DNA from: Bacterioplanoides sp. SCSIO 12839
GTDB lineage: Bacteria > Pseudomonadota > Gammaproteobacteria > Pseudomonadales > Oceanobacteraceae
Reading direction: 5' to 3'
NCBI RefSeq assembly: GCF_024397975.1
Contig: NZ_CP073745.1
Location: forward strand, 956,501-1,020,500
DNA length: 64,000 nt
Shown: piece after piece, positions 8,615 to 63,977 of the stretch
Numbering within the stretch: position 1 is the stretch's first letter
Layout: every line of letters begins with the position of its first letter
Notes under the pieces: model-generated
Told to the model about the DNA's origin: nothing
What the model saw: the letters and a program-made list of their open reading frames with translations, nothing else
Database searches by the model: none
Position numbers and translations under genes: made by a program

Positions 8615-8757
8615 ACTCTTTAGTGTTGGACTTAATTGTCTAGTCGGGTGTTTAGCCAGACTCTAACTTATTGAACGGCTTTATGGTTGCGAGATATCTC
8701 AACCTAAACTCGTTCCTCGTTTAGGTTTCGATATCTCGCGACCTTCTAGTAAAGAGT
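8615..8757 (+). ncRNA. Retron msr-msd non-coding RNA
   Basis: The RNA is bounded by complementary a1 (ACTCTTTA, 8615-8622) and a2 (TAAAGAGT, 8750-8757). The G directly after a1 (8623), in the context TTTAG, is the likely 2'-5' branching guanosine by analogy with Ec86. The msr part contains a stem AGTCGG/CC-A-GACT (8642-8662) whose loop holds UUU, a feature recognised by retron RTs. The msd part is a long hairpin with arms at 8685-8709 and 8719-8743 (25 nt each, three non-Watson-Crick positions, one of them G-U) and a 9-nt loop. The RT gene follows 52 bp downstream. The exact RNA and DNA ends need experiment. Confidence 0.85.
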
Positions 8758-8795
8758 CGGCTTAGGGGAGTGATCCCCTAGGCCGTTTTATTTTC
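8758..8795 (+). terminator. Terminator-like hairpin between retron ncRNA and RT gene
   Basis: CGGCTTAGGGG (8758-8768) pairs with CCCCTAGGCCG (8775-8785) over 11 bp with one G-T pair and a 6-nt loop, followed by TTTTATTTT. It abuts a2 directly. It looks like a strong intrinsic terminator placed before the RT start, so it may release the ncRNA and limit read-through into the protein genes. Confidence 0.75.
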
Positions 8796-8809
8796 TATTG
8801 GACGTTGAT

Positions 8810-9742
8810 ATGAGCTTAATAGCCAACATAGCTAGAGAGTCAAAAAAAACAGAAAAGGAAGTATTATCTTTCCTAAGAAATGCTCCAAATAAATACAAAG
8901 TTTATAAAATACCGAAGAGAACCTCTGGATTTCGAATTATTGCGCAACCTGTTGCAGAATTGAAAGAGTATCAGAGAATCTTCGTCGGTCTCGATAAATT
9001 CCCCGTCCATTCTGCTGCTATGGCATATAGAAAAGGAATAAGCATCAAAGATAACGCTTATCATCATAGAAATGGCAGGTATTTGTTAAAGATGGACTTG
9101 GAGAATTTCTTCAATTCAATATCAAATTCTCTATTCTGGAAAGTTTGTAAAGACAATGGCCTTGCTTTTGATGAGTTTGATCGCTTTACAATGGAAAAGC
9201 TTCTTTTTTGGAATCAGAGGAAAACTAATAGGCGTGGTTTGATCCTTAGTGTTGGTGCACCTAGTTCTCCTTATCTTTCGAATTTTATAATGTATCTCTT
9301 TGATAGTGAGATCGCGAAATACTGTGAAGATAATGGAATTATTTATAGTAGATATGCCGATGATTTAACGTTTTCAACAGAAAGTAAAGGCATATTGTTT
9401 CAAGTTCCTCGTATTGTTGAATCTGTATTAAAACGAGTTTTTGGTAGAAATATTATCGTAAACTCTGGAAAAACTGTATTTTCATCTAAAGCACATAATA
9501 GGCATGTGACTGGCATAACTATTACTAATGAAGGGAAGCTATCTCTTGGTCGGGATCGAAAAAGATATATCAAACATCTAGTCTTTAAATTTATTTCGGG
9601 AAATGCTGCTGATGATGAAGTTACTTACCTTCAGGGGATACTGTCGTTCTCAAAGTATGTTGAACCAAACTTTGTAAAGTCTCTGGGTGAAAAATACTCC
9701 GTTGATGTCATTGATAAAATAATGGAAATAAAAAATGGCTAG
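8810..9742 (+). CDS. Retron reverse transcriptase
   Basis: A 310-residue RT that would copy the msd part of the upstream ncRNA into branched msDNA. Diagnostic motifs, numbered from the ATG at 8810, are: retron-type NAYHH at residues 82-86, the catalytic YADD box at 182-185, and the VTG triplet (RHVTGITI) at 233-235, which contacts the msr RNA. LSVGAPSSPYLSN is RT motif 4. Length is normal for retron RTs, with no fused effector. The ATG is chosen over a TTG 12 bases upstream. Codons are AT-rich compared with the flanking trp and gcv genes, indicating horizontal acquisition. The last 8 bases overlap the ATPase start. Confidence 0.95.
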   Translation: MSLIANIARESKKTEKEVLSFLRNAPNKYKVYKIPKRTSGFRIIAQPVAELKEYQRIFVGLDKFPVHSAAMAYRKGISIKDNAYHHRNGRYLLKMDLENFFNSISNSLFWKVCKDNGLAFDEFDRFTMEKLLFWNQRKTNRRGLILSVGAPSSPYLSNFIMYLFDSEIAKYCEDNGIIYSRYADDLTFSTESKGILFQVPRIVESVLKRVFGRNIIVNSGKTVFSSKAHNRHVTGITITNEGKLSLGRDRKRYIKHLVFKFISGNAADDEVTYLQGILSFSKYVEPNFVKSLGEKYSVDVIDKIMEIKNG

Positions 9743-28358: not shown

Positions 28359-29072
28359 TTAAACTGTTGGCAACGTCAGGCAATCTGTAATGGTTTGTAG
28401 CTGCTCCGGTTGTGTTCGGTCGATGCCCGCAACATAAGGTGTATGGCCGAGTAACGGGATTTGACGATGTTCAAACCACTGGCGCAGAAAGGCCAGGTTT
28501 CCGGCTTGAGCCTCCATATCAGCGGATAGACTGTTCGCGACCCAGCCAACCAGTTTGGCGCCGCAGTTCTGAATCACCTGGGCACTGAGTAGCGCATGGT
28601 TGATACAGCCCAGGCGCAGACCCACTACCAGAATCACTTCGGCATCCAGCTCACCCGCAAAATCGGCCAGTGTTTCAGTGTTGTTGAGAGGGACTAACCA
28701 GCCGCCAGCGCCTTCAACCAGTTGAAAATCAGCCGCTACGCTTAAGCCGGGTTGGCAGGCGGTTAACAAATCATTGCAGGAGAGGGCGGTGTTTTCCTGC
28801 TCTGCGGCAATATGAGGGGCAATGGCCGCTTGAAGGGCAATAGGGTTATGACGTGAGTATTCCTGTTGTTCGGTGCTGTATTGGCGCAGCAGCTGTGCGT
28901 CTTCATTTTGCCATTGAAGACCATTATCCGTTTTGACAGATTCACAACCGGCGGCAACCGGTTTTAAACCGAATGTTGTGAGGCCTTGTTGCTGCGCTTT
29001 TTGCAGCAGCGCGGAAGAGACCAGGGTTTTTCCGGCATCGGTATCAGTACCGGTTATAAAGTAGCGTTTCAT
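28359..29072 (-). CDS. bioD: Dethiobiotin synthetase
   Basis: A 237-residue ATP-dependent ligase that closes the ureido ring of dethiobiotin. The P-loop is GTDTDAGKT at residues 7-15. The substrate-binding GLKPVAAGCE and VEGAGGWLVPLNNTE follow in order. It is the last gene of the minus-strand bioF-H-C-D block, separated from bioC by a 157-bp gap holding a structured repeat. Confidence 0.96.
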   Translation of the reverse strand: MKRYFITGTDTDAGKTLVSSALLQKAQQQGLTTFGLKPVAAGCESVKTDNGLQWQNEDAQLLRQYSTEQQEYSRHNPIALQAAIAPHIAAEQENTALSCNDLLTACQPGLSVAADFQLVEGAGGWLVPLNNTETLADFAGELDAEVILVVGLRLGCINHALLSAQVIQNCGAKLVGWVANSLSADMEAQAGNLAFLRQWFEHRQIPLLGHTPYVAGIDRTQPEQLQTITDCLTLPTV

Positions 29073-29125
29073 TCGTTATCCCATCATCTCCCCAATGGAC
29101 AGATTTAAATCATCAAATATTTACG

Positions 29126-29218
29126 AGGCCGATGCTTTCAATAGCAGCAACAGGATGTTGCGGTAGCCCGGCAGGCACAGGGATGTGCCTTCGGGGCGGC
29201 GGCTGAAAGTATTGGCCT
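29126..29218 (-). repeat. Structured intergenic repeat, copy 1 (twin hairpin element)
   Basis: A 93-bp element with imperfect 15-nt outer arms (29126-29140 and 29204-29218, two mismatches). Read on the minus strand it contains hairpin GGCACA-TCCC-TGTGCC (29189-29174), an enclosing CCCG/CGGG stem, and hairpin GCAACA-TCC-TGTTGC (29161-29147) followed by TGCT. The same architecture and core sequence recur at 63832-63930. It lies between bioC and bioD. Confidence 0.85.
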
Positions 29219-29229
29219 TGTGAATATGG

Positions 29230-30084
29230 TTAACTTTTGCGTAAAACCAGCCAAAGCACTTGATAACTCACCGGTAACTTTCCGTGCTCATCACGCGGGT
29301 AAAACTGATCAAGCAACCTCAAAGCGGCACGGCCACCAAGGCCAGATTTTCGGCCCGAGTTCACATTCGTTGCACCAATGGCTTTTAAGCTGCGTAATAA
29401 CTCAGTGAGCGAATCATAATGCTCGGTTAAACATTCCTGATGTTGAGAAATCACTTCCAGGTTTAATTGCTCACAAATATTAAGCAACCGCTGTTTTTCA
29501 ACAAATTGATTCACATGTGGGCGCTCATCAATCTGATGCCAGGCATCACTTAATTCCTGCTGAGTACCGGGTAATAAGGTTGCAATGGCGAGTGTTGAAT
29601 CGGGCGCTAATACCCGTTGCCACTCATGTAAGGTGTGTAATGGGTTTTCACTCCACTGCAGCATCAGGCTGGAAAAAATTCCCTGCTTACTCGCATCGTG
29701 AAAGGGTAAAACATCGGCATCAGCCTGAACAAATTCCAACTGTTGAATCAGCGACGACTGGGAAAATTGTTGCTGAGCAAACTGCAGCATACCTTCAGCC
29801 AAGTCGACACCGGTAACATGACGAATCCCAGTATTCAATAACGGCTTAAATGCAGCGCCCGTGCCACAACCAATGTCCAGCCAGTGGCCTAAATCGTTAT
29901 TGGGCTTCTGCGGTAAAAAGGTTAATAACCGCTCAATCGCTTGCTGCTGAATGGTAGCTGCCTGGTCATAGCTGTTGGCGGCGCGGCTGAACTGACGAGC
30001 AACTTGTTTTTTATCACGAGTCTGATGTGTGTCTTTTGCCCATTTATTTTGATTGGTCAGGGCATCCAGATTAATCACCGTCAT
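29230..30084 (-). CDS. bioC: Malonyl-ACP O-methyltransferase
   Basis: A 284-residue SAM-dependent methyltransferase that methylates malonyl-ACP to start pimelate synthesis. Motif I is WLDIGCGTGAAFKPL, with further SAM-site segments GVDLAEGMLQFA and FVQADADVLPF. The N-terminal KKQVARQFSRAANSYDQAATIQQ is typical of BioC. It overlaps the end of bioH by 14 bp, so the two are translationally linked. Confidence 0.94.
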   Translation of the reverse strand: MTVINLDALTNQNKWAKDTHQTRDKKQVARQFSRAANSYDQAATIQQQAIERLLTFLPQKPNNDLGHWLDIGCGTGAAFKPLLNTGIRHVTGVDLAEGMLQFAQQQFSQSSLIQQLEFVQADADVLPFHDASKQGIFSSLMLQWSENPLHTLHEWQRVLAPDSTLAIATLLPGTQQELSDAWHQIDERPHVNQFVEKQRLLNICEQLNLEVISQHQECLTEHYDSLTELLRSLKAIGATNVNSGRKSGLGGRAALRLLDQFYPRDEHGKLPVSYQVLWLVLRKS

Positions 30085-60995: not shown

Positions 60996-63737
60996 ATGAT
61001 CGGTAATCTTTTTCGTAAGATCTTCGGCAGTAAAAACAGCCGTGAACTTAAACGTATGGGCAAAATTGTTGCTCAGATCAATGCTCTGGAAGAAGGCCTG
61101 AAGGCACTTTCAGATGATGAATTAAAAGCCAAAACTGCAGAATTCAAGCAACGTATCGAAGCCGGTGAAGCGCTGGATAAGTTATTGCCGGAAGCCTTTG
61201 CGGTTTGTCGTGAAGCCAGTGTGCGTGTGATGGAGATGCGCCACTTTGATGTGCAAATGATCGGTGGTATCACCTTGCATGAAGGCCGCATTGCTGAAAT
61301 GCGTACCGGTGAAGGTAAAACTCTGGTCGCAACATTACCCAGCTATTTGAATGCCCTGACAGGTGAAGGTGTTCATGTCGTTACTGTGAATGATTACCTG
61401 GCTCGCCGTGATGCCGAGTGGAATCGTCCTCTGTTTGAATTTTTGGGTATGTCTGTAGGCATCGTTGTGCCTGGCCAGAACCCGATTGAAAAACGTGAGC
61501 AGTATCAGGCCGATGTTGTATATGGTACGAATAATGAATTCGGTTTCGATTACCTGCGCGACAACATGGCGTTTTCTCTTGCCGACAAGGCTCAGCGCAA
61601 ACTGAACTTTGCGATTGTCGACGAAGTTGACTCGATCCTGATTGATGAGGCACGTACACCGTTGATTATTTCAGGGCCTGCTGAAGACAGCTCTGAGATG
61701 TATCGCGCCATTAATGAATTGGTTCCGAAGCTGGAAAAAGGTGAAGAAGTTGAAGAGGGCAGTGAAGCTGTCGCTTCTGGCCACTTTATTGTTGATGAGA
61801 AGCAACGTTCGATTGAGCTGACCGAAGAAGGCCATGAATTTGTTGAAGAATTATTGACCGAAGCGGGCATTTTGAAAGAAGGTGAAAGCCTGTACGCGGC
61901 GACCAATCTGAATTTGTTGCACCATGTCCACGCGGCCTTAAAAGCACATGCGGTTTATCAGAAGAACGTCGACTATATTGTTCAGCAAGGTCAGATTGTA
62001 ATCGTTGATGAACACACCGGCCGTACCATGCCGGGTCGTCGCTGGAGTGAAGGTCTGCACCAAGCGGTTGAAGCTAAAGAAGGTGTTCAGATCCAGGCCG
62101 AGAGCCAAACACTGGCTTCGACGACTTTCCAGAACTACTTCCGCTTATATAACAAACTGGGCGGCATGACGGGTACCGCTGATACCGAAGCCTTTGAATT
62201 TCATCAAATCTATGCGTTGGATGTTGTGGTTATTCCAACCAATAAGCCGATTCAGCGTATCGACTATAACGATGTTATTTATGCCACTCAGCGTGAAAAA
62301 TACGATGCGGTTGTGGAAGAAATTCGTGAAGTGATTGCACAACAACGTCCTGTTTTGGTGGGTACCGCGTCGATTGAATCATCTGAATATATCTCTCAGG
62401 TACTGCAAAAAGCGAAAGTGCCTCACAATGTATTAAACGCGAAAGAAAATGCTCGTGAAGCTGAGATCATTGCTCAGGCCGGTCGTCCGGGAGCGGTGAC
62501 CATTGCGACCAATATGGCAGGCCGTGGTACCGATATTATGTTGGGTGGTAACTGGGAAGCTGAAGTTGCTGAGCTGAACGAGCCATCACAACAACAGATC
62601 GATCAGATCCGTTCGGAGTGGCAGGTTCGTCATGATGGTATTTTAGAAGCCGGTGGTTTGCATATCATTGGTACCGAACGCCATGAATCGCGTCGTATTG
62701 ATAACCAGCTACGTGGTCGTTCTGGTCGTCAGGGTGATGCCGGTTCAACGCGTTTCTTCCTGTCGCTGGAAGACAGCCTGATGCGTATCTTTATGTCTGA
62801 GCGCATGCGCGGCATGATGCAGGCACTGGGCATGAAGGACGGTGAGTCGATCGAACATAAGATGGTCACCAATGCCGTCGAAAAAGCTCAGCGCAAAGTG
62901 GAAGGCCGTAACTTCGATATTCGTAAGCAGCTGCTGGAGTACGATGATGTCGCAAACGATCAGCGCCGTGTTGTTTACGAGCAACGTAATGACCTGATGG
63001 CGATGGAAGATATTTCGGGTGTGATCGCTAATATCCGTCAGGATGTTGTGGCAGATGCTATCGATAGCTATATTCCGCCTCAAAGTCTCTCCGAGCAATG
63101 GGATATCGCTGGTCTTGAGGCACACCTGAAAGCGGAGTTTGATATTGAACTGCCGGTTCAGCAGTGGCTGGATACAGAAGAAAAACTGTATGAAGAGCCG
63201 CTACGAGAACGTATTCTGGAAAGCATCCAGAAAGCGTACGAAGATAAAGAAGCGGCGGTGGGTGCTGGCCCAATTCGTATGTTCGAGAAGCAGGTGATGC
63301 TGCAGATTCTTGATAACCTATGGAAAGAGCATCTGGCAACTATGGATCATCTGCGTCAGGGGATTCACCTGCGTGGCTATGGTCAGAAAAACCCTAAGCA
63401 GGAATATAAACGTGAATCTTTCACTCTGTTCCAGGAACTGCTGAAAAATATTAAACACGAAACCATCCGTATTTTATCTCATGTGAAAGTGCGTGAAGAA
63501 GAGGAGGTTCGTGAAATGGAAGAGCAACGTCGTGCTCAGGCTGAAGCGCAAGCGCAACAGGCGAATTATCAGCATGACGAAGCAGCTTCAGCCATTACCG
63601 GCGAAAAGCCTCAGGAAAAGGCTGAAGAGGAAACGGCACAACCGTTTACGCGTGATGGGCAAAAGGTTGGCCGTAATGACCCATGTCCATGTGGCTCTGG
63701 TAAAAAATACAAACATTGTTGCGGCAAGCTGAATTAA
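60996..63737 (+). CDS. secA: Preprotein translocase ATPase SecA
   Basis: A 913-residue motor that drives proteins through SecYEG. Walker A is [12 protein letters not shown], Walker B is [13 protein letters not shown], and helicase motif VI contains [15 protein letters not shown]. The preprotein cross-linking and scaffold domains are complete. The C-terminus holds the zinc motif [13 protein letters not shown], which binds SecB. Length is within the family range. Confidence 0.98.
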
Positions 63738-63815: not shown

Positions 63816-63831
63816 AATATAGACAGAATAT

Positions 63832-63930
63832 CGCTATTGATATTTTTCTCTCGCCGCTCAGAAGCGACATCCCTGTCGCTGCTGAGCTAACGCAACATCC
63901 ATGTTGCTGCTGCGAAAAACATCAATACCG
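63832..63930 (+). repeat. Structured intergenic repeat, copy 2 (twin hairpin element)
   Basis: A 99-bp element with outer arms at 63832-63848 and 63914-63930 (15 of 17 complementary). Inside are hairpin GCGACA-TCCC-TGTCGC (63864-63879) enclosed by a GCTCA/TGAGC stem, and hairpin GCAACA-TCCA-TGTTGC (63892-63907) followed by TGCT. It is the plus-strand counterpart of the element at 29126-29218, with compensatory differences in the stems. Confidence 0.85.
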
Positions 63931-63977
63931 CTATTCTTTGCGTTAACGAAAAAACGCATCGAAAAGAAGAGATAAAA

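Follow-up and report, generated by a model that had tools for sequence, protein, structure and literature searches.

The TwoAYGGAY RNA motif was described by Weinberg et al. in 2010 as a candidate cis-regulatory RNA (PMC2864571) and has been an orphan candidate since. Rfam holds it as RF01731, annotates it as Cis-reg and places it in clan CL00106 together with CsrB; binding by CsrA has already been proposed in print (PMC4333381). The element analyzed here shares with RF01731 the three-way junction, the two hairpins with GGA loops and the poorly conserved outer stem, but it occurs in about 85 randomly oriented intergenic copies with private stems. Hairpins with GGA loops are also common to the CsrB/RsmB-type CsrA sponge RNAs (RF00018); each of those is one transcribed gene carrying many GGA hairpins, whereas here there are two hairpins per copy at ∼85 unlinked, randomly oriented sites lacking promoter-like signals. 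Like REP/BIME elements with RAYT (TnpA-REP), the copies are dispersed intergenic hairpins that lie behind genes and rarely between divergent ones, and they share with REP/BIME the inverted pairs, the stem subfamilies with paired changes and the G.T pairs (PMC3733652, PMC8266576). The likeness to integron attC sites is one of working mode, in that the structure persists through changes of sequence and the active form is one folded strand of DNA (PMC3053210). Replication template switching within hairpins is reported to yield multi-base compensatory changes and inverted loops (PMC8794818); both signatures are present here, with an additional strong asymmetry on the head's own strand that needs selection.

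An earlier note on the window, the whole 64,000-nucleotide stretch of DNA analyzed, had described two elements with one architecture. That observation is correct and understated: both elements are members of a family already named TwoAYGGAY, with the same head on the AYGGAY strand (the strand whose loops hold GGA) and, in each, paired 24-nt outer arms. The two are oppositely oriented. Copy 1 occupies 29117-29227 with its AYGGAY strand on the plus strand, between bioD (28359-29072, minus strand) and bioC (29230-30084, minus strand), and is antisense to both genes. The element reported at 29126-29218 is thus real and slightly longer, because its outer arms extend over 29117-29140 and 29204-29227. 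Copy 2 occupies 63825-63937 with its AYGGAY strand on the minus strand, directly 3′ of secA (60996-63737, plus strand). The names bioC, bioD and secA are presumptive, being recognized from the protein sequences without a database search.

The AYGGAY strands of both copies carry a common head, composed of H1 (GCAACA(N)GGATGTTGC), a 4-nt junction, H2 and a CGGCG; H2 is in both cases a stem, a symmetric internal loop, a second stem and an NGGA loop. In copy 1 the 5′ arm (29117-29140, plus strand, 24 nt) is 83% complementary to the 3′ arm (29204-29227, plus strand). Between the arms lie H1 (29147-29161, plus strand; GCAACA-GGA-TGTTGC), which is supported by the predicted fold and by helix covariation over 31 copies, the junction (29162-29165, plus strand), whose sequence GGTA reads GTAG with the next G, and H2 (29166-29197, plus strand), in which GCCC..GGGC surrounds GGCACA-GGGA-TGTGCC as judged from fold, covariation and inverted repeat. 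In copy 2 the 5′ arm (63914-63937, minus strand, 24 nt) is 88% complementary to the 24-nt 3′ arm (63825-63848, minus strand); H1 (63892-63907, minus strand; GCAACA-TGGA-TGTTGC) is supported by the fold, and H2 (63856-63887, minus strand), with GCTCAG..CTGAGC around GCGACA-GGGA-TGTCGC, by fold and inverted repeat. The AYGGAY strand of copy 1 (plus) folds at -61.1 kcal/mol, with a z-score of -7.2 against dinucleotide shuffles, and its opposite strand at -42.1 kcal/mol. The corresponding values for copy 2 are -54.9 kcal/mol (minus strand, z -7.6) and -45.2 kcal/mol.

At E≤1 the Rfam model has 38 hits in the 3.90-Mb genome, and 14 control genomes gave no hit. Its gathering cut-off of 43 bits is reached by 16 copies genome-wide, among them copy 2 at 47.3 bits; the model misses many copies, including copy 1. 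A head-only covariance model, R1, which has 73 positions, was built from 31 of the copies that it finds; its E-values are rough. R1 gives about 85 places in the genome; copy 1, at 96.9 bits, is among its best matches, and copy 2 scores 73.1 bits. The copies are mostly intergenic and the element is about 115 nt long. Over the 31 copies, 95.2% of the stem cells are paired and 13 of the 19 pairs show compensatory changes; the covariation score of 0.402 compares with 0.123 ± 0.012 after shuffling and was reached in 0 of 500 shuffles. The further copies and the covariation across them that the earlier note had looked to are both present, and the covariation backs a head made of two GGA-loop hairpins in a three-way junction. 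The GGA is found in 81 of the 85 H1 loops and 81 of the 85 H2 loops, and almost every member of the main subfamily spaces the two by 28 nt. In one copy (L086, G000:C1:1166893-1166992), a duplication of H1 and the junction brings the number of GGA hairpins on the single stem to three.

The outer stem, about 20-24 bp long and present in nearly every copy, has a different sequence in each. The arm pairing score has a median of 12, compared with 1 when arms were swapped between copies, and the 99th percentile of the swapped arms is surpassed in 93% of copies. Only a handful of 10-mers are common to the arms of different copies, nearly all of them from overlapping neighbours. In most copies the stem ends about 20 bp past a T/A run adjoining the head. 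Terminal inverted repeats alike between copies, as in MITEs, were not found, the arms being private to each copy, nor were attC-type R′ and R″ boxes at the stem base, where the copies have no common sequence. Mobility of a folded strand, which the earlier note had put forward beside selection on structure, finds no trace in the arms. No two copies have arms in common save overlapping neighbours, so that no recent transposition of the whole element is visible, and many sites are common to the sister species.

Other hairpins with GGA loops were met close to the copies. A second dispersed twin hairpin (..GAATACATCCCTGTAGGCTCG.. and relatives), which has no Rfam match, often adjoins TwoAYGGAY copies (L003, L009, L014, L068 and L093). 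Another GGA-hairpin sequence, AAAATGCAGGATGC...AGGTACATGGATGTACCT, lies within hairpin loops of two copies, in H1 of L095 (G000:C1:3174254-3174361) and in H2 of L100 (G000:C1:3489060-3489149), as if it targeted hairpin tips.

The neighbouring genes, which were called with a simple codon-usage caller, run in the same direction on either side of 64 of the 85 copies; they converge on 13 copies and diverge from 3. The stems tend to start 0-30 nt 3′ of a stop codon, a placement similar to that of REPs (PMC3733652). The AYGGAY strand is sense to the neighbouring genes in 34 copies and antisense in 30, and the ratio in the sister species (G001) is 11:13. The copies show no replication-direction bias for any assumed origin, and there is no enrichment of sigma-70-like promoters upstream of the AYGGAY strand.

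Mismatches in the arms are distributed unevenly between the two strands. Read on the AYGGAY strand, all arms together contain 174 G.T and 39 A.C, a tolerance of G.T that does not by itself separate RNA from single-stranded DNA; per copy, G.T is in excess in 67 and A.C in 4. When every kind of mismatch is given the same score, 102 G.T face 4 A.C at stem positions 8-17, and G.G:C.C over all stem positions is 31:1. Composition alone would give a G.T:A.C ratio of about 1.8 to 1, and the asymmetry in this genome goes beyond it. The arms in the sister species have a ratio of 71:13, of which the excess over composition is not significant in the gap-free subset. The AYGGAY strand is predicted to be the more stable one in 78 of 85 copies here, in 29 of 30 in the sister species, and in 10 of 13 and 12 of 13 in two further genomes (G192 and G120); this advantage is significant in each of the latter three, and in another genome (G059) the stabilities of the strands show no significant difference. 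The G.T:A.C ratio is 68:13 in sense copies and 62:17 in antisense copies. Folding of the AYGGAY strand is thus constrained whichever direction the neighbouring genes or replication take. Because the asymmetry is equal in sense and antisense copies, the orientation random and replication bias absent, the constraint is on the element's own strand and comes neither from a neighbour's mRNA nor from the direction of replication. The selection on structure suggested earlier is therefore borne out, specifically for one folded strand.

About 38 copies are present in the sister species, the one species of the genus used for ortholog comparison, and many of them occupy the same intergenic positions as in the present genome. 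Among 22 alignable ortholog pairs, changes on both sides of a stem position left it paired in 27 cases and unpaired in 6 (control expectation 49%, p = 1e-4). Roughly one pair in three has the head in opposite orientation, and several of these pairs still have recognizably homologous arms (among them 2971063, 3708236 and 2035122). Where the head is inverted, its subfamily tends to differ as well, so that inversion and replacement look the same. Where the sister species lacks the element, the site is partly deleted, has decayed or does not align; one site, at 1322313, is ambiguous. The well over 100 copies in the two species amount to a natural experiment on hairpin evolution: pairing and head flips can be traced against a stem sequence that is free to drift.

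Class-wide, the family was detected in 13 of 185 sampled genomes at E≤1e-4. Several of these genomes have many copies, which often form inverted pairs separated by a few hundred bp, and the same sporadic, multi-copy distribution with frequent inverted pairs is seen within the organism's own taxonomic family. An exact-pattern scan of GTDB and IMG/VR contigs, among which this genome and its near relatives are absent, gave no match. The heads in other genomes lie inside larger, conventional repeats, and one of their loops is often CGA instead of GGA. Inverted head pairs about 200-250 bp apart (L147 and L149-L155, in genomes G012, G017, G002, G018, G013 and G009) make up a composite repeat that is conserved across several genera, with no called gene in the interior. 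In G192 a variable yet paired arm segment is flanked by conserved inner and outer sequence. Because conserved sequence lies outside the variable arms, the arms in G192 belong to the element itself rather than to host DNA gained at insertion; the private arms of the present copies may be the end of a gradient.

The REP-like reading offered in the earlier note holds in that the element is a dispersed, strand-specific hairpin found at ∼85 sites. Membership in REP proper is not supported. GTAG precedes H2 in 36 of the 85 copies, a partial likeness to REP/BIME, in which the GTAG tag beside the hairpin is conserved in over 90% of members in most families (PMC3733652); the length of about 115 nt and the private 24-bp outer stem also set the present copies apart from REPs. 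The search for a REP-type (Y1) transposase that the earlier note had called for gave no Y1_Tnp match in this genome or in the sister species, and the presence of Y1_Tnp in relatives does not track element copy number; REP/RAYT was rejected on these two results. Integrons were also considered. Unlike attC systems, the present genome has no integron integrase (0 matches at E≤1e-30), and the copies lie outside cassette arrays and in both orientations. Integron integrase genes are present in 15 of the 18 searched genomes of the order, this genome not among them. One genome (G003; L142, L143 and L144) contains arrays, all on one strand, in which almost identical repeats about 300-400 bp long each carry a TwoAYGGAY-like head. 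An integron array was rejected as an explanation, since these same-strand arrays are tandem repeats rather than cassettes and the genome under study is without IntI.

The reading we lean towards, with somewhat less than even confidence, is that TwoAYGGAY is an old, non-autonomous, dispersed REP-like element that works in the form of a folded single strand, and more likely as DNA than as RNA. The folded strand would be recognized by a protein through its stem and its pair of GGA loops; with their fixed spacing, these loops, together with the junction and the common stem length, resemble a binding site for a dimeric protein. The working strand would more probably be DNA that is transiently single-stranded, as in the REP/RAYT or attC/IntI systems, than part of a neighbour's transcript, because half of the copies are antisense, have no promoter-like signal and are equally constrained. 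An alternative that we consider rather unlikely is that the copies are transcribed and that a CsrA dimer bridges the two GGA loops of the RNA, which would serve as a dispersed sponge or as local 3′-UTR regulators. The published proposal (PMC4333381), the clan shared with CsrB, the near-universal GGA in both loops and the presence of csrA in the genome speak for it, as do the fixed 28-nt spacing, which lies within bridging distance for two loops, and the tolerance of G.U, as in RNA; the match of the GGA loops to CsrA sites is at the same time a point against a DNA strand. A CsrA-binding RNA would, on the other hand, place GGA on the transcribed strand, whereas gene orientation is random in both species, antisense copies are constrained equally, promoter-like signals are not enriched upstream, and one loop is often CGA in other genomes. 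On balance a folded DNA strand would appear to fit the orientation and the strand specificity better than CsrA and RNA do. The data suggest that TwoAYGGAY behaves as a dispersed genomic element without a preferred gene direction in which one strand is still constrained to fold. This combination is hard to square with a simple CsrA sponge, and the choice between RNA and single-stranded DNA is now testable.

A further reading gives the copies no function at all: they would be ancient inserted hairpins whose pairing persists only through template switching, which copies arm onto arm and flips the head. Both signatures reported for that process (PMC8794818) occur here. We nevertheless regard this as improbable, since template switching restores perfect pairing and follows the direction of replication; it leaves unexplained why copies of random orientation have more G.T than A.C on the strand of the head, and why they have GGA loops and a common stem length. 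About equally improbable, in our estimate, is that the head alone is the mobile unit, inserting at hairpin tips or making an inverted copy of its target, and that the arms are host DNA. This would agree with heads that are alike on arms that have nothing in common, with ortholog pairs in which the inverted head often differs in subfamily while the arms are homologous, and with the two copies that hold another GGA-hairpin element inside their own loops. It would need near-perfect 20-bp host hairpins at some 80 sites, which are unexpected; conserved sequence lies outside the variable arms in G192; and the sister-species sites lacking the element are deleted, decayed or unalignable, apart from the ambiguous one. 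Target duplication as the origin of the arms has no clean support and is disfavoured by G192.

Returning to a folded single DNA strand, template switching across the stem during replication would probably supply the two-sided changes and the head flips, and selection on the AYGGAY strand would then filter the variants. Template switching is given the part of a source of variation under selection because alone it cannot explain an asymmetry tied to the orientation of the head. The enzyme that spread the element may have been lost. Several points weigh against this reading: neither Y1_Tnp nor an integron integrase was found as a mobilizing enzyme; mobility alone does not explain pairing kept at fixed sites; the copies have no arms in common, as recent transposition of the whole element would leave; the strands in G059 are not significantly different in stability; and the gap-free G.T excess in the sister species is not significant. 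A broader proposition, which we think possible but doubtful, is that TwoAYGGAY represents a class of elements defined by one folded DNA strand, with a conserved two-loop head on a stem whose length is common to the copies and whose sequence is free and specific to each. Such an element would be kept at fixed sites by the constraint on its strand, could have its head inverted in place, and would be dispersed by an enzyme acting on folded single strands. If so, the Rfam TwoAYGGAY ‘RNA’ would be a DNA element.

The window also contains a retron. Rfam msr matches at 8615-8679 with 73.9 bits and is followed at 8682-8794 by an STnc400-like hairpin, which scores under the Rfam cut-off and is probably the retron msd. 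After msr and msd, an open reading frame of 314 amino acids (8798-9742, plus strand) stands in the place of the retron reverse transcriptase.
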